In this document: positions 5,312 through 59,849 of the stretch, piece after piece
Position numbering within the stretch: position 1 is the stretch's first letter
Layout of the letters: each line of letters opens with the position of its first letter
Translations under genes and position numbers: made by a program
Notes under the pieces: generated by a model
Database searches by the model: none
What the model was told of the DNA's origin: nothing
Seen by the model: the letters and a program-made list of their open reading frames with translations, nothing else
DNA from: Comamonas testosteroni ATCC 11996
GTDB lineage: Bacteria; Pseudomonadota; Gammaproteobacteria; Burkholderiales; Burkholderiaceae_C
DNA: 64,000 bases
Reading direction: 5' to 3'
Assembly: GCF_000241525.1 (NCBI RefSeq)
Contig: NZ_AHIL01000038.1
Span: forward strand, 62,001 to 126,000

Positions 5312-5328
5312 CATCGTCCGTTTTGATG
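5312..5328 (-). promoter_or_regulatory. Regulon palindrome copy (one perfect half)
   Basis: On the minus strand it reads CATCA-aaac-GGACG-ATG followed by TTG. The GGACGATGTTG part is identical to the copies at 7877 and 29306. It lies 66 bp upstream of the small exported-protein gene. The second half-site is 3/5. Confidence 0.5.
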
Positions 5329-5518
5329 AGCAGGTATTTACTTAGGTGGCAACCCCAGACCGATAACCCGTTGGTGCCATCGCACAGCTTGGGCTACTGG
5401 CAAGCACAATCTTCATAATTTGATAGCTGCCATCGCTTTACAGACATAGCTATAAAGCCAATTTAGCTGATATTTTCTGCACGGCAGCAGAGAAAGCAGC
5501 CCATCTGTGTGTGGCCAC

Positions 5519-5547
5519 AAAAAAAGGGCTTTGCCTGCGCAAAGCCC
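5519..5547 (-). terminator. Terminator of the aldolase/DUF35-MaoC operon
   Basis: GGGCTTTGC at 5526-5534 pairs perfectly with GCAAAGCCC at 5539-5547 (4-base loop). On the minus strand the hairpin is followed by seven T's. It lies 52 bp beyond the stop of the DUF35-MaoC gene. Confidence 0.85.
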
Positions 5548-5598
5548 CAACCCTTGAAGAAACTGAAACACCCGCCTTCACTGGGCGGGCAGCGACGA

Positions 5599-6543
5599 TT
5601 ACATGTAGAGAATCACCAAGTCGTTGATGACTGCAGGACGGTCCTGGCCGACCACATGGATGTTGAGCTCCATCGTCGCCTGCACGCCGCTCTTGACCTG
5701 CTCCACCGCCTTGATGCGGGCCCGCGCGCGGATCTTGCAGCCAGAGGGCACCGGGGTCGGGAAGCGCAGGCGGTCCGAACCGTAGTTGACCATGTTGTTG
5801 AAGTCCACCACCTCGTAGTCCAGCGGAATCCTGAGCTGGCTGGCCAGCACCTGCACCAGGGCGCCATGGGCGATGGTGGTGCCAAACGGGCTTTTCTCAC
5901 GCGCCTGCACGGGATCAGTGTGGATCCAGTAGTCATCGCCCGAGAGCCTGGCGAACTCGTTGATGACTTCCTGGCTCACGGTGAACTCGTTGGACCAGGG
6001 GCTGTATTCCTCGGACACCAGAGACTTCATGGCCTCGATGTCCTTGACGGAGATCTTGCGCTTGACAGCGGCAGAGTGCTCCACCACGGCAACCTCGGCC
6101 TCTGCATCTGCGTCGGCCTTGATGACGCCCGGATGGCTGCCCGCATGGGCGGTAAAGCGCAGCAGGGTGACCTCGCCGGGGCGTTCGTCAAACACGGGGC
6201 GCACCTCCATGCCCACCTTGAGCGCCTCGGGAGCCACGCCGACCATGGTGGTGTTGATGCGCACTCCCTCACGGAGTTCGACCACGGCCAGGGCCTGGGG
6301 CATCTCGTCGGTGAACTCGGGCATGGTGGGAATGCGCGCCACGGTGAAGCTGTAGAGCGTGCCCTCGCCCGATACTTTGCTCCACTTCAGGGAGCGCGAT
6401 CCGCAAGTGGGGCAATGGGTGCGCGGGAAAAACAGCGAATGTCCGCGATCGCATTGCTGGATGCGCACTTCGTGGGCCTTGAGACCTTCCCAGTACGGCG
6501 CAGAAATTTCCGTGGGATGAGGCAGAGGTTTGTTCCAAGCCAT
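5599..6543 (-). CDS. DUF35 (zinc ribbon/OB-fold)-MaoC hydratase fusion
   Basis: 314 residues. The N-terminal half is DUF35: rubredoxin-like ribbon (CDRGH..CPTCGS, about 31-48) then an OB-fold with GEGTLYSFTVARIP. The first zinc knuckle lacks its second Cys (CDRGH). The C-terminal half (about 175-314) is a MaoC hot-dog domain with SGDDYWIHTDPVQA and FGTTIAHGALV, the usual hydratase D/H signature. The protein should hydrate a steroid side-chain enoyl-CoA and bind the aldolase encoded 4 bp upstream, as ChsH2 DUF35 binds Ltp2. Domain order is the reverse of ChsH2 and of the paralogue at 27515-28459. In Pseudomonas Chol1 terms it would be a Shy-type protein. Confidence 0.85.
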   Translation of the reverse strand: MAWNKPLPHPTEISAPYWEGLKAHEVRIQQCDRGHSLFFPRTHCPTCGSRSLKWSKVSGEGTLYSFTVARIPTMPEFTDEMPQALAVVELREGVRINTTMVGVAPEALKVGMEVRPVFDERPGEVTLLRFTAHAGSHPGVIKADADAEAEVAVVEHSAAVKRKISVKDIEAMKSLVSEEYSPWSNEFTVSQEVINEFARLSGDDYWIHTDPVQAREKSPFGTTIAHGALVQVLASQLRIPLDYEVVDFNNMVNYGSDRLRFPTPVPSGCKIRARARIKAVEQVKSGVQATMELNIHVVGQDRPAVINDLVILYM

Positions 6544-6547
6544 GTTT

Positions 6548-7762: not shown

Positions 7763-7818
7763 ATGTCTCCCTTACCAAGAAAGTGTGCATTCATTGTGTA
7801 AATGAAGCAGACCGAATC

Positions 7819-7835
7819 CATCGTCTGTAGAGACT
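7819..7835 (-). promoter_or_regulatory. Regulon palindrome copy, aldolase side
   Basis: Minus strand AGTCT-ctac-AGACG-ATG followed by GATT. It lies 57 bp before the aldolase start. Left half 3/5, right half 4/5 plus the ATG extension. It is close to the copy upstream of DUF1329 (16316). Confidence 0.5.
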
Positions 7836-7876
7836 AAAAAGCCGGCCCCGTACATACCCCTAATTCTCCGGGCAAA

Positions 7877-7893
7877 CGTCCATTCGGACGATG
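7877..7893 (+). promoter_or_regulatory. Regulon palindrome copy (perfect), transporter side
   Basis: CGTCC-attc-GGACG-ATG followed by TTG, both halves perfect. It lies 80 bp upstream of the Ycf48-like gene start at 7973 and 42 bp from the second copy that faces the aldolase. A CCCCTAA element precedes it at about 7857. Confidence 0.7.
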
Positions 7894-7972
7894 TTGCAGA
7901 AGCTCCAAATCAAGAACCTGCACCCGTGTTTGCAATACATGCACAGCGTGTACGAATCAACAAGGAGACAAC

Positions 7973-11918: not shown

Positions 11919-11940
11919 GCTGCCACACGCCATCAATAAA

Positions 11941-11970
11941 GCCGCGCGGCCATGCTGCGCGGCTTTTTTT
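11941..11970 (+). terminator. Terminator of the Ycf48-RND-SnoaL operon
   Basis: GCCGCGC (11941-11947) pairs with GCGCGGC (11957-11963) and seven T's follow, 22 bp after the SnoaL stop. Confidence 0.9.
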
Positions 11971-12040
11971 GTTTCCGCACGACTCAATTGCTAGAAGCCT
12001 ACGGTTCATGAAAAAGAACTTCAGGCAAATTTGACACTTG

Positions 12041-16189: not shown

Positions 16190-16315
16190 CTCTGTCTCCT
16201 AGGTTCTAGAACTTATTTTTGGCGGGTGCTACAAACGAGTTGCATTGCCTCGCATCGCCCCATTGGTTTTGCCGTTTGCAGGCAGTTGCATACTGCGTCA
16301 GCAGGCCTCTTCAAC

Positions 16316-16332
16316 CATCGTCTGAGTTGACT
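16316..16332 (-). promoter_or_regulatory. Regulon palindrome copy upstream of DUF1329
   Basis: Minus strand AGTCA-actc-AGACG-ATG followed by GTTG; 127 bp before the start. An ACCCTAG element, also seen near other copies, lies just beside it at 16340-16346. The rest of the 282-bp gap holds only the next gene's terminator. Confidence 0.45.
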
Positions 16333-16389
16333 ACTGACAGACCCTAGCGACCTAGTCCACATGGGTCACATCAAGCGCTTCCCCGAATG

Positions 16390-40249: not shown

Positions 40250-40379
40250 CATTGGAGTCACAGTATTTCGGCAGAGCGGCCAATAGGCTTCATCTGGCCG
40301 GAAGCGGGTCTTCGCAACTGAAGCAAAATAGGATCGATCTTGCCTTTGACTTTTGTTTCACCAAGGATTAACTGTCCCG

Positions 40380-40964
40380 ATGCCTACGCCTGAGCGCTTC
40401 GTTGCGGATGTCCTCCAAAATATCAACAATCGTGCAATTTTTGAACGCTGGGATGATTTGAATCTTCCAGATGGCTGGCTTGTTGCAGGCTGCTTATTTC
40501 AGACAGTGTGGAATTTGCAGGCGCAACGAAATCCTGAGGACTCCATCAAAGACTACGACCTCTTCTACTTTGATCCATCGAGCACCACTGACAGTGCGGA
40601 GCAGAAAGTACAAGCACATGCCGATCGCGTTTTACGCGACCTGGGCATCAAGATTGAAGTCACGAACCAAGCTCGGGTTCACTTGTGGTACGAGTCATAT
40701 TTCGGTCGTCCATATGAAGCACTGCGTAGCTCTTGCGAGGGAATAGATCGCTTCCTGATCCCGGCTACTTGTGTGGGCCTTCGCCCAGGCAGCCTCTATG
40801 CTCCGAACAGCCTGGAGCTGATCTATGACGGAGTTTTGGCACTCAATCCATTGACCCCGCATCGTGAACTTTTCCAGCAAAAGGCAGAGTCTTACCAAGC
40901 GCGTTGGCCATGGCTGCGAATCGTTGTCCCGGTTCATCAGCCTCAGAGAATTGATGCACGCTGA
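40380..40964 (+). CDS. Nucleotidyltransferase-family protein (NTP_transf_6/DUF925)
   Basis: 194 residues from the ATG at 40380; a TTG 27 bp upstream is an alternative. The signature GCLFQTVWNLQ..SIKDYDLFYFD is typical of NTP_transf_6, a minimal nucleotidyltransferase family with unknown substrate. Base composition is visibly less GC-rich than the steroid genes, and no regulon palindrome precedes it. First gene of an accessory block. Confidence 0.8.
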   Translation: MPTPERFVADVLQNINNRAIFERWDDLNLPDGWLVAGCLFQTVWNLQAQRNPEDSIKDYDLFYFDPSSTTDSAEQKVQAHADRVLRDLGIKIEVTNQARVHLWYESYFGRPYEALRSSCEGIDRFLIPATCVGLRPGSLYAPNSLELIYDGVLALNPLTPHRELFQQKAESYQARWPWLRIVVPVHQPQRIDAR

Positions 40965-41087
40965 TGGGTGCGAGCATGTCCGCCTTGGGTCATTCCGGGA
41001 CCGTGGCCTGTCGGCCAGGAGCAGACCTTACACTGCAATGCAGGTCGTTCAATTTACTCGCTGTTCGTACTATGAAAAGTCTTTCCT

Positions 41088-41564
41088 ATGTCCAGAATTG
41101 ACGCTACAACATCCGTAGTAGTAAGAGAAGTCCAGCCACATGACTTTGAAGCGTGGCTTTCACTCTGGGATGGCTATAACGCTTTCTATGGAAGGGCCGG
41201 AGCTACCGGACTGGCGAAGGAAATAACCCAGAAAACCTGGGAGCGATTCTTTAACCCCATCGAACCTGTATTTGCGCTGGTCGCTGAAGATGCAGGAGAA
41301 GTGGTTGGTCTAGCGCATTACATATTTCACCGTAGCACTACGAGACTTGGCCCTGTCTGCTATCTGCAAGATCTTTTTACGGCCCCGAAAAAGCGTCAGC
41401 TTGGAGTTGGCAAGGCCCTCATCAGCAACGTCTACAAGCAAGCAATGCTGGCTGGCTCAAATCGCGTCTATTGGCAAACACAGTCAACCAATGAAGCCGG
41501 CCGTGCGCTCTACGACAAGTTAGCCAAACATAGCGGTTTCATCGTGTACAGCCATGAGCTTTAG
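41088..41564 (+). CDS. GNAT-family acetyltransferase
   Basis: 158 residues with a full GNAT domain: YLQDLFTAPKKRQLGVGKALI is the acetyl-CoA strand and loop, and STNEAGRALYDKLAKHSGFIVY the C-terminal signature. Low-GC like its neighbour. Substrate unknown. Confidence 0.82.
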   Translation: MSRIDATTSVVVREVQPHDFEAWLSLWDGYNAFYGRAGATGLAKEITQKTWERFFNPIEPVFALVAEDAGEVVGLAHYIFHRSTTRLGPVCYLQDLFTAPKKRQLGVGKALISNVYKQAMLAGSNRVYWQTQSTNEAGRALYDKLAKHSGFIVYSHEL

Positions 41565-41812
41565 TCTTCTGCTCCAGACGAACGAATGAGACTACGCAAA
41601 GTAGTGGCGGCTTTGGCTTGAATCGACGCTCGAGTGCAGTCTCTGCTTTCCACCGGGATGGTCTTGCCCAGTGCCTTTGGGCGAGGCCTCTGCGTCGACC
41701 TGTTCAGGGCATACATGGCCCACAACGCCCAAGCTTGAGATAGACCCAGCCTCACAAGCTGTATAAAGAAACAGTAGACTTTGGACTTGATAGCATCAGG
41801 AAAAGTCCAGAC

Positions 41813-42304
41813 ATGCCAGCAGAACTCGAACCAGAAGACGTCTCCATCTTCGAAGACCGCCTTTGGCACCACAAGGGCTGGGAAGCCCGCGTCATCAAGA
41901 ATGAAGACGACGATGGCTGGGCGGTGTCAATGACCCAAGACGGCCAAGCGGAACCCGCTCTGGTCGGCCCATGGACCATGGGGCGTGACAAGAAGAATCC
42001 CAAGCCTCTTGACGTGTCGGCCTTCAACACGCTGGTGAAAACTGCCAGCGAAGTGATACGTCGCCATGAGCAGCACCAGGCAGCGCTGTTGCACAAAGCC
42101 ATCCAGATTGAAGTTCGCGGATTGCGCGTGACGGTGGCTCTCGATATTGAGCCCGATGAGGACAATCCCACGGCGACTCTCACTGCCACCGCAGCGGACG
42201 GCAGCGAATTGGCCAAGGTACGAGTCCGACCGGCTCATAGTCTCACCCGTGCGTCCGCACAGCGCTGGGCAGACGCAGGCTACCCGCGTGAGAGCGAGGA
42301 CTGA
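41813..42304 (+). CDS. Hypothetical protein
   Basis: 163 residues, acidic at the N-terminus, no signal peptide or membrane segment. It contains WHHKGWEARVIKNEDDDGWAV and a C-terminal half that looks like a second small beta domain (IEVRGLRVTVALDIEPDED). I recognise no family. AGGAAAAG lies upstream of the ATG. Part of the accessory block; the roughly 290 bp after it show no gene. Confidence 0.6.
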   Translation: MPAELEPEDVSIFEDRLWHHKGWEARVIKNEDDDGWAVSMTQDGQAEPALVGPWTMGRDKKNPKPLDVSAFNTLVKTASEVIRRHEQHQAALLHKAIQIEVRGLRVTVALDIEPDEDNPTATLTATAADGSELAKVRVRPAHSLTRASAQRWADAGYPRESED

Positions 42305-42592
42305 ACCTGAGGACAAGACCCTTGCTCAGAATTCGGATCGGCCCTTTCTGGGCGACCAATGTCCTTAGCATGGCCTTGGCCTCGGCTGCTTGTGAAAGCT
42401 TGCTTGAGCGCTGGAAGAAAGTAATACCGGAGAAGTTGAGCACTCCATCGAGCCGACCTTGCCGGGGATGCCCGACACTCCGCAGCCCCGGCCAAGGAGT
42501 TGCATTGACCCGTTGAAGCCACCGCCATCAGCGGACATGGGACAACGGCACCAGATCTTCGGATTGCATGGGTCAGCTCGAAAATCGGCCAT

Positions 42593-43426
42593 ATGCCCAA
42601 CCTCGACCTGTTTGATATCCATCTCCAACGTTGGAGCGCGAAGGTGGCCGGCGCCCCTTTCACAACTCATACAAGTGACCTTCTACCCGTCATCCTCACA
42701 AGGAACTGGGCAGGTCTGCCTGCAATGATCAAGGTCACGCGAAACCTTGACGAGCGCATCGGCGCCAGAGTGCTTCAATGGTGGGGCGGCAATGGAGCAG
42801 CGCAAGTTTATGCCTACGACCAAGATACAGGAGCGCTGCTGATGGAGCGCGCTACCGGCTCCAGGCATTTGCTGCACATGGCCAGAAAAGGCGAAGACGA
42901 TGCAGCGACAAGCTGTATCTGCCGCACCATCGAGCAACTGCATTCAAAGAGATCCTCGGCACCACCTGAAGAGCTGCTGCCACTGGCGGATTTTTTTGAG
43001 TCACTCGCGTTGATGGCGCAGCAGGAAGGCGGCTTGATGGCCGAATGCGCAACGGTGGCAGCTGAGCTGATCAATGAGCAGCGTGAGCCTGTCGTCCTGC
43101 ATGGTGATGCGCACCACGGCAACATCCTCGACTTCGACAGGCGTGGATGGCTGGCGATAGATCCAAAGCGCGTCACAGGTGAGCGGTACTACGACTACGT
43201 GAGCGTGCTGTGCAACCCCGAGCTGGAGACCTGCACCGAGCCGGAGCGCTTCGCTCGGCAGCTTGCAGTAGTCATCAATGTCACAGGGCTGGAACGCCGG
43301 CGTTTACTCAAATGGGTGATGGCTCACGCCGCTTTGTCGGCAGCCTGGTTCCTGGAAGACGCAGAGCGCACCAGGGCCAACAGGCAACTGGCCGTTGCGC
43401 ATCTTGCGAGGCAGGCACTGGGATAA
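42593..43426 (+). CDS. APH(6)/hydroxyurea-type kinase
   Basis: 277 residues. The kinase catalytic loop VVLHGDAHHGNILDF and the metal-binding WLAIDPKRVTGE are intact, and the N-terminal WAGLPAMIKVT carries the ATP-site Lys. This is the aminoglycoside 6-phosphotransferase family (StrB-like), which phosphorylates streptomycin in known members. Many chromosomal relatives have unknown substrates, so resistance is not proven. Confidence 0.82.
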   Translation: MPNLDLFDIHLQRWSAKVAGAPFTTHTSDLLPVILTRNWAGLPAMIKVTRNLDERIGARVLQWWGGNGAAQVYAYDQDTGALLMERATGSRHLLHMARKGEDDAATSCICRTIEQLHSKRSSAPPEELLPLADFFESLALMAQQEGGLMAECATVAAELINEQREPVVLHGDAHHGNILDFDRRGWLAIDPKRVTGERYYDYVSVLCNPELETCTEPERFARQLAVVINVTGLERRRLLKWVMAHAALSAAWFLEDAERTRANRQLAVAHLARQALG

Positions 43427-43478
43427 GGCGTCCAGCTCTGCCGCCCAAAGGCCGGCTCTCGGACGGTCGGCCTCGGGC

Positions 43479-43739
43479 TCACGCGCCGGGCCGAGCGCGC
43501 AGCGCCGCGTCGAACCGGGCCAGCTCCTGCTGCAGCGTGCCTCGCTGCCTGAAGCGCAGGCCGGCGCGCTCATACCAGTTCTCGGCGTCCTCCAGATCAC
43601 CTTCCTGCAGATGCAGCAGCCCGTGCAACCAGGCTGCGAGCAGGCCGTCATGCCGCTGCACGGCATCGTGCGCGGCATTCCATTGCCCGGCCCGCATCTG
43701 CAGCGCGATGGCTTGCAGCTGCGCATTGATTTCACTCAT
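43479..43739 (-). CDS. Small helical protein, unknown
   Basis: 86 residues, helix-rich, with a TPR-like unit (LLHLQEGDLEDAENWYERAGL). No signal peptide. Transcribed together with the SnoaL gene 18 bp upstream. Function unknown. Confidence 0.6.
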   Translation of the reverse strand: MSEINAQLQAIALQMRAGQWNAAHDAVQRHDGLLAAWLHGLLHLQEGDLEDAENWYERAGLRFRQRGTLQQELARFDAALRARPGA

Positions 43740-43757
43740 GGCAGGACTCCGTTGCGC

Positions 43758-44150
43758 TCAGGCCAGCAGCGCCTGCTGCACCAGGTGGCTGTCCACATAC
43801 TGCTCCATGCTCGTGATCCTGCCCTCGTTGAGCCGGTACAGATGGGCGAAGCTCGCCGTCATCGCCTTGCCCGTCTTGCGATAGGTGCCCGAGTAGACGC
43901 CGAAGGCGGCCACGCGGTCGCCATCGGCCAGGTAGGTGTGGACCTTGGCGCTGTAGCCGTCCCACTCCGTCGCCAGCCGCTGGAACACGCCTGTGACGAT
44001 CTGCTGCGGGCCGACGTAGGTTCCTGCATAGGGAAAGCCTGCGGCCTCTGTCCAACGGGCGTCAGGCGCCAGTGCAGCCAGCAGATTCCTGCCGTTCTCC
44101 TCGGACGAGCCTTCGTAGGTCGCGCGGATGATATCCAGATTGGTAGTCAT
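43758..44150 (-). CDS. SnoaL-like/NTF2-fold protein
   Basis: 130 residues from the ATG at 44150. Typical SnoaL_2 pattern: IRATYEGSSEENGRNLLAAL, FAHLYRLNEGRI and SMEQYVDS. Members are often cyclases, isomerases or of unknown function. No catalytic assignment attempted. In the same minus-strand unit as the degenerate metallo-hydrolase. Confidence 0.75.
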   Translation of the reverse strand: MTTNLDIIRATYEGSSEENGRNLLAALAPDARWTEAAGFPYAGTYVGPQQIVTGVFQRLATEWDGYSAKVHTYLADGDRVAAFGVYSGTYRKTGKAMTASFAHLYRLNEGRITSMEQYVDSHLVQQALLA

Positions 44151-44167
44151 GGTGTGCGTCCCTGGCT

Positions 44168-45067
44168 TCAGCCCCACTTCATCTCACCCATGGCCACCTT
44201 GGCGCCGATCTGCAGCGCGGCAGCCAGGCCGGCGTCAGGATAGCGCCTGTTCATGGCGGCAATCAGCGCGTCGCCATTGGACGCCCTGGCCAACTCCTGC
44301 TCGAAGGCCAGCAGGTATTCGCGGGTGTAGTTCACTGCCGAAACGTCCAGCGCGCCATGGGCACCCAGGTGGCCCGGCACGATCACGGCCGGCTTGCGTG
44401 CGGCGATGGCTTCCAGGTTCTTTACCCAGGCGGCGCGGGAGGCCGGCGTCGGGGTATCGGCCGTCCACACATGCAACCCGGAGAAGACCAGCACGCCACC
44501 GAAGACCGCATTCAGCGAGGGAACCCACAGGTAGCGGCGGTTCTCCAGTCCTTGTGCCTTGACGATTTCGATGGTGTTGCCCTCCAGCATCAGCGCGGGG
44601 CCGTCATAGGCCTCAGGAAAGACGATGTCGGCAAGCTTCTGCGGACCGTTCTCCTTGAGCTGGGGCGCCCAGGTAGCTATCTTTTTTTGCACATTGGCGC
44701 GGATGGCGGCAATGGTGTCGGAGGCGGCCAGCACCCTGGCAGCGGGGAAGGCGGCCTTGATCGGAGCCAGGCTGAAGTAATAGTCCGGGTCGCTCTGGCT
44801 GACGTAGATGGTGGTCAGCTGCTTGCCCGATGCCTTGATGGCTTCGGCCACGGCGCGGCCATCGGGCAGGGAAAAGCCGCCGTCGATGAGAATGGCCTCG
44901 CTGTCGCCCGAGAGCAGCACGGGCGCACGGAAGAAGCCTTTGTCGCCTGCGGGAAAGTGCTTCCATTGCAGCGTGGAATGGCCGCTAACAGCTGCGGCGC
45001 AACCCGCCAGGCCTGTGACGATGCCGGCGGCGGCGGCGGTTTGAACAAAGTCTCGGCGATTCATCAT
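44168..45067 (-). CDS. Tat-exported metallo-beta-lactamase-fold protein, degenerate zinc site
   Basis: 299 residues. N-terminal NRRDFVQTAAAAG followed by a hydrophobic stretch and GLAGCAA indicates a Tat signal with a possible lipobox. The MBL fold is visible (ILIDGGFSLPDG, VPGHLGAHG), but the HxHxDH motif reads SQSDPD (YVSQSDPDYYF), so the first zinc site is lost. It may bind a different metal or act without one. First gene of a three-gene minus-strand unit. Confidence 0.75.
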   Translation of the reverse strand: MMNRRDFVQTAAAAGIVTGLAGCAAAVSGHSTLQWKHFPAGDKGFFRAPVLLSGDSEAILIDGGFSLPDGRAVAEAIKASGKQLTTIYVSQSDPDYYFSLAPIKAAFPAARVLAASDTIAAIRANVQKKIATWAPQLKENGPQKLADIVFPEAYDGPALMLEGNTIEIVKAQGLENRRYLWVPSLNAVFGGVLVFSGLHVWTADTPTPASRAAWVKNLEAIAARKPAVIVPGHLGAHGALDVSAVNYTREYLLAFEQELARASNGDALIAAMNRRYPDAGLAAALQIGAKVAMGEMKWG

Positions 45068-45117
45068 GATGGTCCTTTGGTGAATTTCAAAAATGGCGGA
45101 AGTCAGACACGCAAGGC

Positions 45118-45768
45118 TCAGCCCGCGCTGAGTTGCTCGGCAAAGGCCTGCGGATTGGAGTAGGCGGCACTGGAGTTCAGCAATCGGCGCTGGCCATTGG
45201 CCTCCAGGATGAAGCTTGGAACGCCGCGCGCGCCAAGCTGGCTCTGCAGCGCCTTTGCGCCTTCGATGCGGGCTCGATTGGCAGCCAGCAGTTCGCCATC
45301 AGAGCGCAGCAGGCTTGCAGCAGCCTGCTCCAGCCCCAGAGCCTGCAGAACTGCCATCAGCGTGTCCGGTTGCGTGATGTCCTCGCCATTGACGTAGCGG
45401 GCATGCTGAATGGCCTCAAGGGCGTCAAGCTCGCGCTCTGGAGTGCACAGACTGACAGCGCTCAGCGCCAGGGTGGCCGGGCCGCTGTCGAACAGTTGCT
45501 GGCGATCCGACAGCACATGGCTGCGGTAGCGCTCGCTGAAGCGCTGGCCCGTCAGACGCTCGATTCGCTGATCGTTGCCCCAGGCATGGGCTGCAAAGCC
45601 ATCGTCCATGAGACGTGCACCCGCGCCTGCGAAAAGGCCGCTGAGCAGCAGGCGCACCTCGACCTCAGGCGCTTTGCCCAGAGCCGCCACCGCTGCGGCG
45701 GCACCGTAGCACCAGCCGCACAGGGGGTCGAATACGTAATGCAGGGTCTTGGTCACTGAGGGCTCCAT
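45118..45768 (-). CDS. DsbA-family thioredoxin-fold protein
   Basis: 216 residues from the ATG at 45768. It begins with a thioredoxin strand and CxxC motif (FDPLCGWCYG), followed by the helical insert of the DsbA/FrnE family and a closing GVPSFILEANGQ cis-Pro segment. No signal peptide, so probably cytosolic. Divergent from a LysR regulator 67 bp away, its likely controller. Confidence 0.82.
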   Translation of the reverse strand: MEPSVTKTLHYVFDPLCGWCYGAAAAVAALGKAPEVEVRLLLSGLFAGAGARLMDDGFAAHAWGNDQRIERLTGQRFSERYRSHVLSDRQQLFDSGPATLALSAVSLCTPERELDALEAIQHARYVNGEDITQPDTLMAVLQALGLEQAAASLLRSDGELLAANRARIEGAKALQSQLGARGVPSFILEANGQRRLLNSSAAYSNPQAFAEQLSAG

Positions 45769-45835
45769 TGCTTCAATGCCCTGATCGTAGGAACAAAGCA
45801 TTGACAGAAAAAGCCTGATCGAATAGATAAACTGT

Positions 45836-46771
45836 ATGTCAATAGCAAACAATTCAGAAGAATCCATCGCCGGCAGGCTTGCCAATCTCAAGCGCCTGGC
45901 TTACTTCGCGGCCGTGGTGGAAACCGGCAGTTTCACGGCAGCCGCAGACCGGCTGGGCATTACCAAGGCCGTGGTCAGCCAGCAGGTCGCAAGGCTGGAG
46001 CATGAATTCCACACGACGCTTCTGACTCGCACCACCCGCAAGGTCGTTGCCACCGACGCAGGCCGGATCTTCTATCAACGCTGTGCATCCATCCTCAAGG
46101 AAGCGGGTGATGCTTTCGACGAACTGGGGGAAGTGGCGGCCGAGCCTTCGGGAACCTTGCGTCTGACCGCCCCGCTGGACTATGGCATCACGGCAGTGGT
46201 TCCAGCCATCACCGAGTTCACGCGGCACTACCCCCAATGCAAGGTGGACGCCGTGTTCAGCGACCAGCCGCTTGATCTGATGTCGGGGCAGGTCGAGCTG
46301 GCAATCCGCGTCGGCTGGCTTTCCCACTTGAATGTGCAGGCCCGTCAGATCGGAAGCTTCAGGCAATTGCTGGTCGCAGCTCCCTCATTGCGCCGGCAAG
46401 TGGCGCAGCTCAAACAGCCACAGCACATCAGCGAGCTACCCTTTGTCGCGAACACTGCCCTGCGTGAACCCTGCAGCTGGAGCTTCTCGCGCAGCGAGCT
46501 GGAGCGTCAGAGCGTGACGGTACACCCGGTGATCTCGCTCGATGCGACACTGGCCGTGCGCGAAGCCGTGCGTCATGGGGCAGGCTTGTCGGTACTGCCC
46601 GACTTCGCCGTTGCCGATGATTTGAAGAGCGGCACGCTGATACAGGTGCTGCCCGGGTGGTCGCTGCCATCGGGGGGCATTCATGCCGTGTTCCCGACCG
46701 CACGATTCCGACCTGCAAAGGTCAAAGCTTTCGTGGACCTGATGCAGGAGCAAATCCGCTCCAGAGCATGA
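45836..46771 (+). CDS. LysR-type transcriptional regulator
   Basis: 311 residues. DNA-binding helix FTAAADRLGITKAVVSQQV (about 33-52), substrate domain about 100-300. Probably controls the divergent DsbA-like gene. It carries no palindrome upstream. It might also act more widely, but nothing in the sequence shows that. Confidence 0.85.
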   Translation: MSIANNSEESIAGRLANLKRLAYFAAVVETGSFTAAADRLGITKAVVSQQVARLEHEFHTTLLTRTTRKVVATDAGRIFYQRCASILKEAGDAFDELGEVAAEPSGTLRLTAPLDYGITAVVPAITEFTRHYPQCKVDAVFSDQPLDLMSGQVELAIRVGWLSHLNVQARQIGSFRQLLVAAPSLRRQVAQLKQPQHISELPFVANTALREPCSWSFSRSELERQSVTVHPVISLDATLAVREAVRHGAGLSVLPDFAVADDLKSGTLIQVLPGWSLPSGGIHAVFPTARFRPAKVKAFVDLMQEQIRSRA

Positions 46772-47012: not shown

Positions 47013-47783
47013 TCAGAAGTTGGGAGCTTCCACACCTCCGTCCACCCCCAGCACTTTGCCAGTCACCCAGCTCGATGCGGGGCTGGCCAGAAACAGCGCG
47101 GCATTGGCAATGTCTTCGGGCTGGCCCATGCGTGCCATGGGTGTGGTTTTCTCCATGCGCTCCTTGCGATCCGGTGTGAGAAACGGCGCCAGTGCATCGG
47201 TCATGATGGTGCCGGGCTCGATGGCGTTGATACGTACCTTGGGACCGAAGTCCTGCGCCAGGCAGCGCGTCATCTGGTTGAGCGCGGCCTTGGCCGCACC
47301 ATAGGCGCTGAAGTACTTTTGCGAATAGCGTGCCGCCGTGGACGAGATATTGACCACGGCCCCGCCGCCCGCAGCCTCCATGGCCGCAGCAGCCTTCTGG
47401 ATCAGCGTGTATGCAGGCACCACATTGAACGCCAGCATGTCGCCCACCGCCTTGCCCGCCACCTTGCGCGGGTCGTTGGGACCGCCGCCGCCCACATTGT
47501 TGATGAGCACATTGATCTTGCCCAGCTCCTCCACGGTGCGGACGATGAGCTTGTCCAGATCTTCCTCTTTGTTCACATCGCCCTGCACGGCAATGGCACG
47601 GCGGCCCAGCGCTTCAATTTCGGCCTTGACTGCCTGCAGGTCCGCCTCGGTGCGCGCAAACAGCGCCACATCGGCGCCAGCCTTGGCCAGCGTGACAGCG
47701 CATGCACGGCCGATACCCTTGCCCGCACCGGTCACCACAGCCACCTTCCCCTCCAGCGAAAACTGGCGAAAAATCTCGTTCAT
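47013..47783 (-). CDS. Short-chain dehydrogenase/reductase
   Basis: 256 residues: TGAGKGIGRAC cofactor loop, NNVGGGG, Ser in NISSTA, YGAAK. The Arg in FARTEAD after strand 2 suggests NADP(H), as in 7-alpha-HSD/FabG-like enzymes. A degenerate palindrome lies 62-78 bp upstream. A hydroxysteroid dehydrogenase role is plausible from context only. Confidence 0.83.
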   Translation of the reverse strand: MNEIFRQFSLEGKVAVVTGAGKGIGRACAVTLAKAGADVALFARTEADLQAVKAEIEALGRRAIAVQGDVNKEEDLDKLIVRTVEELGKINVLINNVGGGGPNDPRKVAGKAVGDMLAFNVVPAYTLIQKAAAAMEAAGGGAVVNISSTAARYSQKYFSAYGAAKAALNQMTRCLAQDFGPKVRINAIEPGTIMTDALAPFLTPDRKERMEKTTPMARMGQPEDIANAALFLASPASSWVTGKVLGVDGGVEAPNF

Positions 47784-47844
47784 GTCTCTTCCTATGATTG
47801 CGTTCTGACCCGCCCATGCTCTGTACGAAACGCTTTCAGGACAT

Positions 47845-47861
47845 CAGCCAAACGGACCATG
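47845..47861 (-). promoter_or_regulatory. Degenerate regulon palindrome upstream of the SDR
   Basis: CAGCC-aaac-GGACC-ATG on the plus strand (halves 3/5 and 4/5). It is about 70 bp before the SDR start and overlaps the perfect 24-bp inverted repeat at 47855. Confidence 0.3.
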
Positions 47862-49519: not shown

Positions 49520-49593
49520 TTTGTCTCCTCGATACTTCTCTTGAAAGCCATGAACGGAAGGCACATGCTCAGACCTGAGGATTTCGCGGTCGT

Positions 49594-49610
49594 CGTCCAA
49601 AAAGACGATG
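49594..49610 (+). promoter_or_regulatory. Regulon palindrome copy between aldehyde dehydrogenase and MFS gene
   Basis: CGTCC-aaaa-AGACG-ATG (5/5 and 4/5), then GCATAACCCTAGG with the same spacing as at 35947. 75 bp from the aldehyde dehydrogenase start, but only 25 bp from the annotated MFS start. Confidence 0.6.
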
Positions 49611-49634
49611 GCATAACCCTAGGCCCCTCGCACG

Positions 49635-50978
49635 ATGCAGCGCATGCACACCCATCAAACCCCGCCTCCCGCCGTCAGCTGGCGCACTCATCTCAGCCTC
49701 GCCCTGCTGGCGCTGGTCTATATTTTCTCCTTCATTGACCGACAGGTTCTGTCTATTTTGCTGGAGCCCGTCAAACAGGAATTCGGTGCCTCCGACACCG
49801 AGATGGGTTTGCTCACGGGGCTGGCCTTCGGTCTGATCTATGCCCTGCTGGGTGTGCCTGTGGGGCGTCTGGCCGACACCCGCAACCGCCGCAACATCGT
49901 GGCCCTGTGCTGCGGGATCTGGAGCCTTGCCACCGCTGCCTGCGGCATGGCCACCCAGTACTGGCACATGCTGCTGGCCCGCATGAGCGTGGCAGTGGGC
50001 GAAGCCGGCGGCATGGCGCCCTCGGTGTCCATAGTCTCGGACCTGTATCCCCCCAAGATGCGTTCGTTTGCCATCAGTCTGTTCATGATGGGCCCCAACC
50101 TGGGAACGCTGCTGGGCCTGGTCATCGGCGGCATGGTGGCCCAGCATTACGGCTGGCGCTCCGTGTTTCTCGCCTTCGGCATCCCGGGCGTAATCCTTGC
50201 GCTGCTGGTGTATTTCTTTGTCAAGGAACCGGCACGTGGCGCCTATGAGAGCATCAAGCCCGCAGCTCAAGGCAGCGCTGCGCGCGAATCCATGTTTCGC
50301 CAGGTCAGGCGTTTGCTGGGCATGGCGCCGCTGCGCAATATCTGCATCGCCTGCGGCGTGGCCGGTATTGCAGGTTATGGCTACGGTGTCTGGGCTCCGA
50401 GCTTTTTCATGCGCATTCACGGCATGAGCATCTCCCACGCTGGCCTGGTGTTCGGCCTGGCCAGCGGCCTGGGTGCCGTGTTCGGCGCCATGTTCTGCGG
50501 CTGGCTCAGCGACAGATTGACACAGCGCGACTCGCGCTGGCAGCTGCGTCTGGCCGCCATGGGCACCCTCTGCGCCGTGCCTGCAGGCGTGGCCGTGTTT
50601 TTCTGGCCCGTGTCCGACTTCTGGACGGTTGCCGGCATCAAGGTCCCCTATGCCATGGCATTTGCCCTGCTGTTCGGCTTTTTTGCGAGCTGGTTTGCCA
50701 CGCTTGCATACAGCGCCGTCAGCCAGATGGTGACTGCCGCCGAGCGCAGCGTTGCCTCGGCACTTCTCAATCTGTTCATGACCTTGCTGGGCGTGGGCCT
50801 GGGTCCGCTGGTAACGGGCATTTTGTCGGACTACTTTGCCCGGACCCACGGCTCCGAAGGCCTGCGCTGGGCACTGATGGGCGTGACCTCGCTGCTCGTC
50901 ATCACTTCGCTTTTCTTCGCGTTGGCCATCCGCCCCTATCAGCAGCGCCTGCAGCAGTTGCAGATGAATGCCGCCTGA
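49635..50978 (+). CDS. MFS transporter (Spinster-like), copy 1
   Basis: 447 residues, 12 predicted TM helices. Family motif FSFIDRQVLSILLEPVKQEF and GVPVGRLADTRNRRN between TM2 and TM3. Strongly similar in layout to the MFS proteins at 54003 and 59966. Probably a steroid or bile-acid proton symporter in the inner membrane. Heads a plus-strand unit with an SDR and a Rieske oxygenase. Confidence 0.85.
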   Translation: MQRMHTHQTPPPAVSWRTHLSLALLALVYIFSFIDRQVLSILLEPVKQEFGASDTEMGLLTGLAFGLIYALLGVPVGRLADTRNRRNIVALCCGIWSLATAACGMATQYWHMLLARMSVAVGEAGGMAPSVSIVSDLYPPKMRSFAISLFMMGPNLGTLLGLVIGGMVAQHYGWRSVFLAFGIPGVILALLVYFFVKEPARGAYESIKPAAQGSAARESMFRQVRRLLGMAPLRNICIACGVAGIAGYGYGVWAPSFFMRIHGMSISHAGLVFGLASGLGAVFGAMFCGWLSDRLTQRDSRWQLRLAAMGTLCAVPAGVAVFFWPVSDFWTVAGIKVPYAMAFALLFGFFASWFATLAYSAVSQMVTAAERSVASALLNLFMTLLGVGLGPLVTGILSDYFARTHGSEGLRWALMGVTSLLVITSLFFALAIRPYQQRLQQLQMNAA

Positions 50979-51837: not shown

Positions 51838-51917
51838 ACAGCATGTAAGCGTGCGCAAACACCCAACCAAGGGCAAACCCTGTGCGGTTTGTGCCAGATC
51901 AAAGCTGCGCCTTCACT

Positions 51918-51934
51918 CGTCCAAACAGAGTATG
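51918..51934 (+). promoter_or_regulatory. Degenerate regulon site upstream of the Rieske oxygenase
   Basis: CGTCC-aaac-AGAGT-ATG; a second CGTCC-aaaa half lies 48 bp on at 51966. Left halves are perfect and the right ones poor. 62 bp from the Rieske start. Confidence 0.35.
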
Positions 51935-51995
51935 CGCGGCGACGTCGCTTGCCAGAAGATTCATCCGTCCAAAACTAAATACGGAGACCTCTGCA

Positions 51996-53105
51996 ATGGC
52001 AACCACGAAGGACTACCGCCTCGGTGAATTCACCTACCCACGTGGCTGGTTCATGATTTCCGAGGCCCAGGCGCTCGACACCCACAAGCCCGTGGCCGTG
52101 CGCTTCTTCGGCCAGGATTTCGCGCTGTACCGTGGCCGCGAAAGCGGCAAGGTCGTGCTGCTGGACGCTTACTGCCCCCATATGAAGACTCATCTGGCAG
52201 CGCCCAATACCACCAGCTATGTGGTGATCGACGGCGGCGGCAGCAATGTGGAAGGCGACGGCATTCGCTGCCCCTATCACGGCTGGCGCTTCGGCGCGGA
52301 CGGCAAGTGCGACCACATCCCCTATCACGACGGAGCCATTCCGGCCGCGGCCGCAGTCAAGAGCTGGAAGGTTGTCGAGCAGTACGGCGCCATCTGGGTC
52401 TGGTTCGATCCCGAAGGCGGTGAGCCCGACTACGATCTGCCCACTTTTGGCGACTGGCATGACGAGACCTATGTCAACGGCCAGTGGGACTACCTGGGCG
52501 AGCTGAACCAGCACCCCATGGAGGTCGTGGACAATATTGCCGACTATGGTCACCTCAGCCCCATCCACGGCTCCACCGTGGCGCGCTTCGAGAACGAGTT
52601 CAAGGGCCACAACGCCATCCAGCGCCAGTGCGGCGGTCACCGAACCCTGGTGGGCGAAGGCGGTGCCAGCGCCGATCTGCACACCGACACCTGGTACCAC
52701 GGCCCCGCCATCCTGGTCTCCAAGGTCAGCGGCATGTTCAACTCCTTCATGATGATCATGCATACCCCCATCGAGGACGGCAGGATCAAGGTCTGGCACA
52801 ACCTGCTGGTCAAGACTGCACACGGCGGCCTGCCCACCAAGGCGGACGAAATCGCGGCCAAACAGTACCAGGAAGCCAGCCGCCTGGCCTTTGCCCAGGA
52901 CTTCGAAGTCTGGTCGCAGAAAGCTCCCTGCCTGAACCCGCTGTTCATCCCCAGCGACGGCGCATTCCTCAAGGCCCGTATCTGGTACAAGCAGTTCTAC
53001 AACCCCCGCGCCAAGGCGGCCGAGTATCTGGACCAGTGCGAAGGCAGGTACATTCCTCGCGGAATGGTGGCCTATACCCAGGAAGCCGAGGAAGCGACGG
53101 CCTGA
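51996..53105 (+). CDS. Rieske non-heme iron oxygenase (KshA/Neverland-like)
   Basis: 369 residues from the ATG at 51996. Rieske ligands Cys60/His62 and Cys92/His95, with an unusually long 29-residue spacer holding a Gly/Asn-rich insert. Mononuclear iron site DNIADYGHLSPIHG (Asn180, Asp183, His186, His191). This is the branch of steroid 9-alpha-hydroxylase KshA and cholesterol-7-desaturase-like enzymes. It needs a reductase, which is not encoded nearby. Regiochemistry cannot be told from sequence. Confidence 0.85.
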   Translation: MATTKDYRLGEFTYPRGWFMISEAQALDTHKPVAVRFFGQDFALYRGRESGKVVLLDAYCPHMKTHLAAPNTTSYVVIDGGGSNVEGDGIRCPYHGWRFGADGKCDHIPYHDGAIPAAAAVKSWKVVEQYGAIWVWFDPEGGEPDYDLPTFGDWHDETYVNGQWDYLGELNQHPMEVVDNIADYGHLSPIHGSTVARFENEFKGHNAIQRQCGGHRTLVGEGGASADLHTDTWYHGPAILVSKVSGMFNSFMMIMHTPIEDGRIKVWHNLLVKTAHGGLPTKADEIAAKQYQEASRLAFAQDFEVWSQKAPCLNPLFIPSDGAFLKARIWYKQFYNPRAKAAEYLDQCEGRYIPRGMVAYTQEAEEATA

Positions 53106-53125
53106 TCCCGAGAATCTCCAAGGCC

Positions 53126-53157: not shown

Positions 53158-53280
53158 GTCGGAGTGAATATCTGCTTCCAAAACCATAGCTCCAAGCGCT
53201 TTATCCCCATGAAAATTCAATACAAAACATATTGAAGTCCTTATTCATAAAGCGTGAGAAGCTACTATCTTTTCAAGTCC

Positions 53281-55319: not shown

Positions 55320-55482
55320 CACGTCATGGCTCTCGCCGCTGCTCACGCCTCAGCAGCGCTGTCTGCCCTCGGACGCAAGGAGCGCGGGCGCAGGTCTTTG
55401 CACACGTCTCACATCGCGGCCGCATCCATGTCCAGTTCAATGGAACGGCCTTGAGCATCGTGGTCATGAGCAGCCGCCCTCA

Positions 55483-55501
55483 CATCGTCCCAACGGACGA
55501 T
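55483..55501 (+). promoter_or_regulatory. Regulon palindrome copy (perfect, extended)
   Basis: CAT-CGTCC-caac-GGACG-AT, then TCCCTAACC. It is the longest match in the window, with both ATG-type extensions partly present. 95 bp before the amidohydrolase start and about 165 bp before the divergent MFS start. Confidence 0.7.
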
Positions 55502-55595
55502 TCCCTAACCCGGATTGGCCTTGCGTGCGGATTGCCTCTTAATGGAATGCGGCTGCGGGCTCGACCGCACGCCAGAACCTCAAGGAGACTGACAC

Positions 55596-57311: not shown

Positions 57312-57580
57312 ACGCTGCCGGTCTCCCCATCAGGCCTCGAAGCAAGCCCGGCTCTTGAGGCCTGCGCTCATTTTTTCATCCGGACAGGAGCGCTTTCGTG
57401 CACATCCCTGCATCCAAAAACGGACCAGATCCGCCAGGCCCGCGCCGCTTGTGAGCAGCCATCCTCCCTGGCCTCCTTCGCAGAGATCAGGCGCCTCGAC
57501 CAAGTGCCTTGAGCAGATCGTGTTCACGCCATGCGGATCCCAGCGATATAGTGACCCGTCATCTTCCATGTCTGTACCCC

Positions 57581-58021
57581 ATGCATTTGCGCAAGTTCCA
57601 TACCCTGCTTCAGACGTGGCTCATGCTGCTGAGCTTTTTCGTCATGCCTTGCAGCGCGCAGGAAGCAGCAGCCTGGGATAAGCAGGTAACGGGCCGCACT
57701 TCCATCACCAGGCTGGGCACGATTGACTACGAGGTAGGCTACAGCAACGCAGGCTTTGACCATTTCTCTTCTGAAATCGTGGCCAGATGGAATGACGGAG
57801 GAGCGCAGGAGCAGACGCTGTACGAAGGCATTTACGACCGGCCGCCCGCCAAGGTCTGGGGAAACGGGCCCCATCTTTGCATTGCCATGCAGACCTGCGC
57901 GCGCTATTCGGATCGCTGCAGCCAGTATGTGATTGCACACCGCTATGACACGCAGGCCAAGGCCTTTGTGGCGCTGAAGTCCGAGAAGACTGCGCGCCGG
58001 ATCTGCGCTGCGCCACGCTGA
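57581..58021 (+). CDS. Small secreted protein, unknown function
   Basis: 146 residues from the ATG at 57581. The signal peptide (LLQTWLMLLSFFVMPCSAQ) is clear. The mature part has four cysteines near the C-terminus (CIAMQTCARYSDRCSQ), suggesting disulphides in the periplasm. No family recognised. The 269-bp gap upstream shows nothing else. Confidence 0.65.
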   Translation: MHLRKFHTLLQTWLMLLSFFVMPCSAQEAAAWDKQVTGRTSITRLGTIDYEVGYSNAGFDHFSSEIVARWNDGGAQEQTLYEGIYDRPPAKVWGNGPHLCIAMQTCARYSDRCSQYVIAHRYDTQAKAFVALKSEKTARRICAAPR

Positions 58022-58025
58022 AGAT

Positions 58026-58054
58026 AAAAAAGAAGGAGGCCGGAGCCTCCTTTA
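58026..58054. terminator. Hairpin between convergent genes
   Basis: AAGGAGGC (58034-58041) pairs with GCCTCCTT (58046-58053), with A's on the left and a short T-run. Could serve both the secreted-protein gene and the acyl-CoA ligase. Confidence 0.6.
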
Positions 58055-58121
58055 AATCCCGTCGTCAGGCGCGACGAACAGGGTATCCTCTGTGCTGTCT
58101 GTAACTGTTCTTCCTTCTGGT

Positions 58122-59747
58122 TCAGGCCGCTACGGCGCCAAGCGGCTCATGCTCCGCCGCATAGGCCTTGGCCCAGCGGTAATCCGCCTTGCCTGCCGGG
58201 CTGCGCTTGACTTCAGTGGTCAGATATACGGCGCGCGGCAGCTTGTAGCCCGACAGATTGCTGCGGCAGATCTTTTCGAACTCCTGCAGATCGAACTCAT
58301 GGCCCTGCTGCACCTGCACCACGGCCACCACCTTGCTGCCCCAGCGTTCGTCAGGAAGGCCCACGATCACCACATCCTGAACCGGCGGGTAGCGGCGCGC
58401 GGTTTCCTCCACCTCTTCGGGGTAGACCTTCTCGCCTCCTGTGTTGATGCACTGCGAGCCACGACCCAGCACCACATATTCGCCCGTGGTGTCGATGCGG
58501 GCCCTGTCCCCTGTCAACACCCAGCGGCTGCCCTCGACCATCACAAAGGTCTCGGCCGTTTTCTTGGGATCTCCGTAATAGCCCAGGGGCATGTGACCAC
58601 GGCGCGAAAGAATGCCTTCCTCCCCTGGCTGATTCAGGATGCGCAGATCTTCGGAGATCACGCTGAGGTCAGGACGCGGCGAGATGCGTATAAAGCCTTC
58701 GCCCTCGGGCGTTTTCTCCCCTCCGCCCAAGACACCGGATTCGGAGCTGGCCATGCCGTTGTTGAGCACCAGATGAGGCACCTGCACCAGCAGCCGCTCC
58801 TGCAGATGACGCGAAAACACGGCACCGCCGTTGCCGAAGATCATCAGTGACTTGAGAGGCCAGCGCCCGGGGTTGTTCTCCAGCGTCTGGATGATGGGCA
58901 AGGCCATGGCATCGCCAACCACGGCCATCACATTGATCTGGTGATGCTCGATCAGATCCAGCATGTGCACGGGATCAAAGTTCTTGCGATCGTTCACATA
59001 GACCGGATGCCCGGAAAACAGGCTGATCAGGGTGGCCCACATGGCTGCGCCATGCATGAGCGGGGCCGCCGCCAGATAGGCCAGCGCCGGACCGTTGGGC
59101 ACCAGTTGGAGCAGCTCCTCCGGCCGTTCGATGGGAGGCCGGCGGAAGTAATAGCCGCCACCGCCCAAGGCCCCCATGAACAGGGATTTATGTGGCCACA
59201 TCACGCCTTTGGGCAGCCCCGTGGTGCCGCCGGTGCAGAGCATGAAGATATCGTCATCGCTGCGCTCGGCGTCCGTGAGCTCCCGGGCGCCTTCGGCCAG
59301 CACCGACTCGTAGGGCTGAACGCTTCTGGGCAGGCCATCGCGCACAGTGCCAACCCGCAGCGCCAGGCGCAGCGTGGGCACCCGGGGCATGACTTCCAGC
59401 ACCGACGCATCGAAGTCCGCGCCATAGACCAGGCCGCGCAGATCCAGGCTGTTGAACAGTCCCTGAAGCTCATCGGCCACATAGCGGTAGTTCACGTTCA
59501 CGGGCACGGCACCGATCTTGCTGCAGGCGAAAAAGGCCTCCAGATACTCGGCGCAGTTGTAGAGCTGGATGCCGACGTTGTCGCCCCGCCCGATGCCACG
59601 CGCACGCAGCGCATTGCCCAGCTGATTGGCTCGCTCATCGAGCTGCTTGAAGCTGAGCTTCTGGTCGCCGCAACCGAAGGCCGTGCGATCAGGTACGGCC
59701 TGTACCACCAGCTCGAAAATATCTGCCAAATTGAAGGTCCGCTTCAT
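58122..59747 (-). CDS. Acyl-CoA synthetase, FadD3/FadD19-like
   Basis: 541 residues. ANL signatures CTGGTTGLPKGV, FGNGGAVFS, GDRARIDTTGEYVVLGRGSQCINTGGEK and the C-terminal Lys in RSPAGKADY. The wide, glycine-rich substrate region GALGGGGYYF is typical of the steroid-CoA ligase branch FadD3/FadD19. Likely activates a steroid side chain or a ring-derived carboxylate. Palindrome half-site 86 bp upstream. Confidence 0.85.
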   Translation of the reverse strand: MKRTFNLADIFELVVQAVPDRTAFGCGDQKLSFKQLDERANQLGNALRARGIGRGDNVGIQLYNCAEYLEAFFACSKIGAVPVNVNYRYVADELQGLFNSLDLRGLVYGADFDASVLEVMPRVPTLRLALRVGTVRDGLPRSVQPYESVLAEGARELTDAERSDDDIFMLCTGGTTGLPKGVMWPHKSLFMGALGGGGYYFRRPPIERPEELLQLVPNGPALAYLAAAPLMHGAAMWATLISLFSGHPVYVNDRKNFDPVHMLDLIEHHQINVMAVVGDAMALPIIQTLENNPGRWPLKSLMIFGNGGAVFSRHLQERLLVQVPHLVLNNGMASSESGVLGGGEKTPEGEGFIRISPRPDLSVISEDLRILNQPGEEGILSRRGHMPLGYYGDPKKTAETFVMVEGSRWVLTGDRARIDTTGEYVVLGRGSQCINTGGEKVYPEEVEETARRYPPVQDVVIVGLPDERWGSKVVAVVQVQQGHEFDLQEFEKICRSNLSGYKLPRAVYLTTEVKRSPAGKADYRWAKAYAAEHEPLGAVAA

Positions 59748-59832
59748 CTTCCTGTCTCCGTCTGTCCTTGAGTTGTTCTGAATTCACTGCGTCTGCAATC
59801 GCTCTCATGCTCGGCGGCTGGCCTGCGGCATC

Positions 59833-59849
59833 CATCGTCCGCTTGAACT
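59833..59849 (-). promoter_or_regulatory. Regulon site copy upstream of acyl-CoA synthetase
   Basis: Minus strand AGTTC-aagc-GGACG-ATG then GATG. Right half perfect, left 2-3/5. 86 bp before the ligase start. ACCCTAG occurs 78 bp further on at 59918-59924. Confidence 0.45.

Follow-up and report, generated by a model that had tools for sequence, protein, structure and literature searches.

A conserved DNA dyad at steroid promoters of Comamonas testosteroni, the probable operator of TesR

Most promoters of the steroid mega-cluster of Comamonas testosteroni ATCC 11996 share a recurring 20-bp imperfect dyad. This dyad is a real, conserved operator and, on the strength of comparative sequence analysis, very probably that of TesR (TeiR), a LuxR-type regulator encoded in the same cluster that would act on it as a class II activator. 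The window analyzed here is a 64-kb part of the cluster, C26:62001-126000 on the steroid contig of a 5.41-Mb genome in 63 contigs. Plain coordinates refer to the window, the prefixes C26, C15 and C9 to contigs of this genome, and G-numbers to the genomes of relatives; the family set comprises 299 genomes, this one included. Box coordinates are those of the 20-mer, and operons are predicted from gene order and orientation rather than from mapped transcripts. Sites were scored with 20-mer matrices, among them one made from 14 sites of this genome that holds no -10 information, and with a 48-position promoter model built from 46 promoters of this genome and its relatives. Because these 46 were picked for the A and T of their -10, the model's own -10 columns prove nothing.

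The initial annotation of the window had described a 17-bp palindrome, CGTCCN4GGACG followed by ATG, and every copy that it listed was found: exact ones at 7877, 29306 and 55486, one with a single mismatch at 49594, and weaker ones at 5312, 7819, 16316, 35947, 47845, 51918 and 59833. The core of that description stands, but the element is 20 bp long and asymmetric, occurs in a second class, and is followed by ATT, not ATG, at 55486. By itself the excess of the short core is modest, with 61 window matches at up to two mismatches as against 39.5 +/- 6.5 in shuffles, none of 100 shuffles reaching 61. This moderate enrichment is what would be expected if the boxes were chance or coding-bias palindromes picked by eye, a notion that we find hardly credible given the recovery of the dyad without a seed, its conservation across genera, a mirror control of 217 hits vs 3, and its spacing to the -10. 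Exact cores number six in the genome, three of them inside the window (binomial P 3.2e-5); the three outside it sit in long open frames of coding-like composition.

Unseeded expectation-maximization on 44 promoter segments (C26:42-166 kb) returned CaTCgTCCAAacaGAcGATg with a log-likelihood of 113 (50 starts), against 82-90 in three shuffled sets (25 starts); at width 28 it gave a ribosome-binding-site-like element, GGAGACAA, instead of the dyad. Scored as CATCGTCC-N4-GGACGATG, six window positions match in at least 13 of 16 places, five of them intergenic steroid promoters and the sixth (16822) intragenic. Read toward the served gene, the element consists of a distal half, either (C/A)TCGTCC or the TTAGTCY of the second box class (TTAGTC), then four bases, then GGACGATG. 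A perfect 8-4-8 palindrome was rejected, the distal half being degenerate: the last three bases A, T and G are kept in 13, 12 and 14 of the 14 sites of this genome, and their mirror bases in 11, 6 and 4. A few bases past the distal half, a (C)TAGGG or AAGGG word occurs at boxes 16316, 49591, 59833 and C26:139646. An upstream AGGG/CTAGGG was rejected as part of the box, since AGGG has no preferred position in untrained loci of other genera.

The position of the dyad within the promoter bears on its function. When a -10 matrix was slid downstream of the boxes of this genome and its relatives, one sharp peak appeared, at offset 20. Over 104 site-orientations in 39 target groups, from which the rows of G094 and G142b had been dropped beforehand, the mean at this offset was -0.27, compared with a maximum of -3.2 in 300 shuffles; for the 22 site-orientations of this genome it was 1.19, compared with -2.14 at the next best offset, and 19 of the 22 lay above 0. 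Among 118 sites in 58 untrained TesR loci, chosen with the 14-site matrix that lacks -10 information, the A and T of the hexamer occurred at offset 20 in 74, at offset 19 in 18 and at offset 21 in 22, with 0-5 at nine other offsets. The box is thus at a nearly constant distance from a -10-like hexamer; the initial annotation had named a constant distance to transcription start sites as a test. Setting the -10 at -12 to -7 puts the middle of the dyad at about -42.5, where, for a 17-bp spacer, the outer ATG overlies the first three positions of the -35 hexamer. A fixed distance to the -10 and a centre near -42, both measured to -10-like hexamers, are typical of class II activators, and it is this placement, more than the palindrome, that argues for activation.

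A short dyad with a 4-bp gap could also belong to a TetR- or GntR-like repressor released by a steroid intermediate, as with KstR in actinobacteria, and repressors of single steroid genes are described for this species in the available portion of one source (PMC6678751). We regard such an operator as very unlikely, because near-rigid placement 20 bp upstream of the -10 is activator geometry, whereas a repressor site would tolerate shifts. In addition, no TetR or GntR family member was found in the 40 window proteins scanned, a subset of the window's genes, no genome-wide search having been made.

The genome scan that had been suggested as a check on the motif gave, with the 48-position model, 27 matches at E up to 10. 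Twelve steroid-contig sites and one beside a TesR paralog, sites on which the model was partly trained, fill the first 13 places; the remaining 14 are three more steroid-contig sites and 11 elsewhere, these 11 beginning at E 0.0985. Overall the scan holds 15 sites of the C26 cluster, C15:15280 and the 11 elsewhere. Such whole-genome searches carry just a fraction of their initial candidates through to scoring and so overlook sites; the box at C15:18760, for one, is absent from this list. Within the window, steroid promoters account for all of the 12 best site-orientations (at least 18.3; 10 dyads), most of them used in training; the next scores belong to the + side of box 55483 (11.9) and then to an intragenic site (9.0).

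Published expression data broadly match this distribution. RNA-seq of another strain, JLU460ET, lists the steroid cluster gene by gene (PMC10637631), and we mapped it by gene order and description. The operon test covered 70 of the 93 rows GM3846-3938 (GM3881-3883 and 3893 unmapped, GM3920-3938 not entered); a box operon required a score of at least 9 and a 160-bp joining rule, and four gene starts were assigned manually. After 3 h of testosterone, 41 of 43 genes in box-headed operons had a log2 fold change of at least 4 (16-fold or more; Fisher P 2.6e-5 against the other genes). The two that failed are the accessory genes GM3888-3889, wrongly joined by the 160-bp rule. The 18 un-entered rows GM3920-3937, which include the box-headed tesB run, rise by 5.88 or more, and tesR rises by 4.88, as predicted by its box-headed run; two LysR genes and the mapped accessory genes range from no change to 1.40. 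In that strain the genes downstream of the boxes are induced, not repressed, by steroid. Geometry and induction together suggest class II activation, and these tests support the initial proposal of a common regulon for uptake, side-chain and ring genes under one regulator, with TesR as the putative reader of the box.

In the available portions of three papers, TesR/TeiR is a positive LuxR-type regulator needed to induce most steroid genes (PMC6678751, PMC6895838, PMC8399759). It had been named as a candidate from the start, the regulator itself not being evident in the window, and that suggestion fits; its gene (C26:135693-136946) belongs to the same cluster and lies roughly 10 kb past the window's end. 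Its product (P0001) is 99% identical to TesR of C. testosteroni JL40 and contains a GerE helix-turn-helix (HTH) at 353-406 (27.5 bits, cut-off 23.5) and a weak PAS match at 220-253. Hydropathy gives one borderline window (1.65) and no clear membrane segment, and the recognition-helix core NTARAHLR is invariant in nine aligned TesR proteins.

Boxes and TesR also occur together across genomes. TesR orthologs at E 1e-40 are found in 11 of the 299 family genomes, this one included, and all 11 have 5-17 model matches, as against four of the other 288 with five or more. Ten of the 11 supplied training sites; the only untrained one, G094, has five matches. In other families of the class, 8 of 9 matches in G595, 18 of 19 in G359 and 9 of 10 in G615 lie within 60 kb of TesR-like genes. 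The Marinobacterium genome among these (G595), with a TesR 46-47% identical, has boxes before the same genes as C. testosteroni: one before the tesB ortholog (61%), differing from the tesB box here in 1 of 20 bases, and one separating the counterparts of the enoyl-CoA hydratase and SDR genes that flank box 29303. Eighty TesR loci with at least 46% identity were kept, and their sources include Comamonas, Diaphorobacter, Rhodoferax, Massilia, Thauera, Aromatoleum, Zoogloea, Marinobacterium and Pseudomonas. These loci yielded 217 hits of at least 12 in 70 loci, against 3 hits in 3 loci for reversed sequence; 53 of the 58 untrained loci carry a box, against 2 in the mirror control; of the five that gave no hit, three are shorter than 6 kb. 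Genes for a GerE-HTH regulator thus accompany the sites, with the exceptions weighed below. The spread of these loci speaks against the statement, in the part of PMC6895838 available, that tesR-like genes are confined to C. testosteroni strains.

The main reader of the boxes might instead be another LuxR/GerE-type regulator, such as the TesR paralog on C15 or C9. This genome encodes three TesR-like proteins (tesR, C15, C9) with the same NTARAHLRSIFSKTG recognition helix, and some genomes without TesR have similar boxes beside a protein of about 900 aa that is LAL-type in the two cases examined. We consider another reader unlikely, because TesR is the copy inside the steroid cluster both here and in relatives, because a mutant lacking teiR reportedly fails to utilize testosterone (PMC6895838, in the portion available), and because no GerE protein of LAL size is encoded here. 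The longest open frame among 21 GerE matches is 481 aa, so that a LAL-type reader in this genome was rejected; a 949-aa protein near the cluster end, tried in the same role, is an aconitase. One box points at the C15 paralog, and the G128 counterpart of that paralog also has a box upstream. The C9 TesR-like protein (59% identical; stretch C9:66001-86000) has no good box there.

Several observations weigh against TesR as the reader of the boxes. The family-wide results are partly circular, since the training sites come from this genome and its relatives and the A and T of the -10 were preselected. At E 0.1 the model finds one or more sites in 135 of the 299 family genomes, and a TesR-less genome outside the family (G561) has five at E 0.3; single model matches mean little. 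Control loci of this genome (0.108 Mb, several chosen for their core copies) gave 4 hits of at least 10, and the C9 paralog has one weak site (10.0) in 20 kb. Beyond the class, six genomes with TesR-like genes, of nine searched in the phylum, show no clustering of boxes near those genes: 0 of 6 matches in G329, 1 of 6 in G592, 0 of 2 in G624, 0 of 7 in G550, 0 of 2 in G445, and no model match in G405. No TesR-box regulon was found in these genomes of other classes. In G116, the box next to a TesR-like gene (40% identical) faces the divergent gene and not the TesR-like one. This last case and the six genomes without a link slightly lower our confidence in TesR as the reader.

The expression data and the literature add to these points. 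Outside box operons, 14 of 27 genes also reach a log2 fold change of 4, and about 2000 up-regulated transcripts per condition are reported for JLU460ET in the part of PMC10637631 available. The five-gene operon from 59823+ to tesG is induced with only a weak site (6.1), as are GM3907-3911 (290 bp below box-headed GM3912) and GM3913, where no site passes the rule. Among the other induced genes outside box operons, GM3857 lies behind box 5312, with its -10 one base nearer, and the KSI and hsdA genes lie behind box 35944, which is weak on that side. TesR/TeiR is moreover reported as a polar membrane kinase in the available text of PMC6678751 and PMC8399759. The data favour TesR as a direct DNA-binding activator, and a kinase role is possible.

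Similar dyads also occur where TesR does not. Stretches were taken from 10 genomes in which TesR had no match at 1e-40, and six of them (G069, G175, G253, G114, G264 and G138) have boxes in acyl-CoA clusters beside the protein of about 900 aa, many of these boxes having a -10-like word at a distance of about 20 bp; in the two examined, MalT and GerE domains confirm this protein as a LAL-type LuxR regulator. These boxes count against an exclusive link to TesR, and the initial candidate is qualified to that extent: they form a related but separate regulon, and the core is not exclusive to TesR. The four non-TesR family genomes with at least five matches are G104 and three with such acyl-CoA clusters; G253, G264 and G138 have fewer. 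In G104 (76% complete), perfect dyads precede steroid orthologs and no TesR was found at E 1e-8; this genome may lack the contig with tesR. G122, G129 and G250 have one or two sites each, outside any acyl-CoA or 900-aa context.

We propose that a TesR dimer would bind the 20-bp dyad centred near -42.5 and, once bound, would recruit RNA polymerase to promoters with a recognizable -10 (NANNAT) and hardly any -35. On the promoter-proximal side, the outer ATG would stand in for the TTG of the -35 at a 17-bp spacer, a role that would explain why ATG is kept proximally and decayed distally. Near-symmetric dyads with a -10 on both sides could let one site fire two divergent operons; at one-way promoters the distal half may stay degenerate (TTAGTC). 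Positive autoregulation would follow from the box ahead of the SDR-ORF-thiolase-tesR run. Individual boxes are listed in Table 1.

Table 1. Boxes in and around the window, with putative -10 hexamers and served genes, and the regulators found beside boxes in genomes without TesR
Feature	Position	Strand	-10-like hexamer	Genes served	Score	Remarks
Box GCTCATCAAAACGGACGATG	5312..5331	-	one base closer (offset 19)	small open reading frame (ORF) 5043-5300, box upstream	21.0 (20-mer); only 4.5 (48-position)	
Box TTTAGTCTCTACAGACGATG	7819..7838	-	CACAAT 7793-7798	7762->5599 (thiolase-like; ChsH2/MaoC-like)	37.2	
Box AAACGTCCATTCGGACGATG	7874..7893	+	GAACCT 7914-7919 (weak)	7973->11918 (BNR-repeat protein, MMPL exporter, SnoaL-like)	34.9	
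Box AGTAGTCAACTCAGACGATG	16316..16335	-	CAGTAT 16290-16295	16189->12088 (DUF1329, DUF1302, DLH hydrolase)	28.8	orthologs in G128, G178
Box ATACGTCCAAAAGGACGATG	29303..29322	both	GACCAT 29343-29348 (+); TAAATT 29277-29282 (-)	enoyl-CoA hydratase 29378+; 11-gene run 29293->16472 (-)	33.1 (+); 19.1 (-)	near-symmetric; divergent genes; kept between same two genes in G128, G178, G595
Box CTACATGCAAACGGACGATG	35944..35963	both	TACCGT 35984-35989 (+); TTTGAT 35918-35923 (-)	reductases 35988+; hsdA-like SDR and KSI-like (-)	18.3 (+); - side weak, 14.1 (20-mer), <6 (48-position)	
Box CATGGTCCGTTTGGCTGATG	47842..47861	-	GAGCAT 47816-47821	SDR 47013-47783	24.5	boxes at orthologs in G128, G131, G178, G231
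Box CGTCGTCCAAAAAGACGATG	49591..49610	both	GAGCAT 49565-49570 (-); CACGAT 49631-49636 (+)	aldehyde dehydrogenase (-); MFS/SDR (+)	31.0 and 29.7	divergent genes; box between same two genes in G128, G131, G231
Box ACTCGTCCAAACAGAGTATG	51915..51934	+	GAAGAT 51955-51960	kshA 51882-53105	20.0	untrained site of this genome; kshA orthologs in G018, G128, G131, G231 carry a box
Box AATCGTCCGTTGGGACGATG	55483..55502	-	CACGAT 55457-55462	MFS/EthD run 55346->53281	36.4	+ side (amidohydrolase) 11.9, no -10-like word at expected place
Box CCCAGTTCAAGCGGACGATG	59833..59852	-	GAGCAT 59807-59812	CoA ligase 58122-59747	25.0	orthologs in G004, G128, G131 carry a box
Box	C26:59666			58371-59567, first gene of tesH/tesI-side run; box upstream		outside window
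Box	C26:139646			SDR-ORF-thiolase-tesR run		outside window
Box	C26:155305			tesB run		outside window
Box	C26:158863					outside window
Box	C15:15279					outside window
Box	C15:18760			TesR paralog, 85 bp away		outside window
~900-aa protein	L070:7955-10681	-				
~900-aa protein	L078:11849-14611	-				

The boxes had been placed usually 55-130 bp before the start codons, which holds roughly, several longest-ORF starts looking too early. The starts at 49635, 35988 and 51882 overlap a box or a -10-like word and are probably too early; the true start of kshA probably lies downstream of box 51915. All five divergent regions of the steroid part had been credited with a box, and each carries one (7763-7972, 29294-29377, and near 35.95, 49.6 and 55.4 kb). 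A sixth pair, 30870-/31745+, has none, and in the related strain its genes show little or no induction. Beside box 35944, upstream of the hsdA-like gene, stands the word TCAAAGCCCA (35919-35928), which we take to be half of the known hsdA operator. The RepA/hsdA operators are gene-specific and have a different word from the box, and two control systems may meet at this promoter.

The accessory block at 40353-46771 encodes a nucleotidyltransferase, an aminoglycoside/hydroxyurea kinase of APH(6)-like type, a LysR protein and a protein matching the metallo-beta-lactamase superfamily, and its first two genes have low third-position GC (0.51). As the initial annotation had noted, there is no box between 40.3 and 46.8 kb: the two-mismatch core matches there all fall inside called genes, and the three promoters tested score -7.0, -10.8 and -17.7 with the 48-position matrix. 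Other regulators of the cluster were compared with the relatives' fetched stretches, in which no best hit above 45% to either LysR protein was found and the XRE protein of the cluster end, which is ScfR-like, has an ortholog in G128 only. Because the relatives were chosen by TesR, this lack of sharing speaks only against the LysR and XRE genes themselves. A gene printed as a response regulator encodes a GGDEF protein.

The lux box and CRP class II sites are dyads of about 20 bp centred near -42 that overlap a missing -35; the TesR box has the same size and placement and a different sequence, and TesR, unlike the lux-box system, has no matched autoinducer domain. The motif of KstR/KstR2 differs from the box. 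Parts of two papers describe a cluster-wide steroid regulon for KstR/KstR2 of actinobacteria (PMC8399759, PMC6678751). Those proteins are TetR-type repressors, whereas the box here has activator geometry. EL222 is a light-regulated LuxR-HTH activator with a PAS/LOV domain. Its half-site motif in the available text is RGNCY (PMC10521638), to which AGTCY conforms completely and CGTCC at 4 of 5 positions. The spacing of the half-sites and the signal are not those of the TesR box, and the likeness of EL222 to TesR is weak and limited to the HTH (8a5r, E 0.19), other LuxR-HTH chains, among them VraR and ComA, scoring better.

The portions of the TesR/TeiR literature available describe a membrane kinase and give no operator, and we found no printed one in the open-licence literature searched; the present proposal consists of a DNA site, a promoter geometry and a regulon. 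Tentatively, and with slightly less than even confidence, we suggest that one rigid grammar (a LuxR-HTH dyad at -42.5, ATG as the -35, 20 bp to the -10, sometimes two-way) controls aerobic steroid breakdown across beta- and gammaproteobacterial genera, shared by the TesR and LAL-type subfamilies, with TesR activating by binding DNA directly and not as a membrane kinase that works through others. According to the available part of a review (PMC8399759), regulation in bile-acid degraders is largely unknown in its mechanisms. What is new here is an operator and regulon for a known kind of regulator. The box with its exact geometry is a directly testable model of proteobacterial steroid and bile-acid regulation, allows regulons to be predicted in many environmental genomes, and supplies defined parts for building steroid biosensors.

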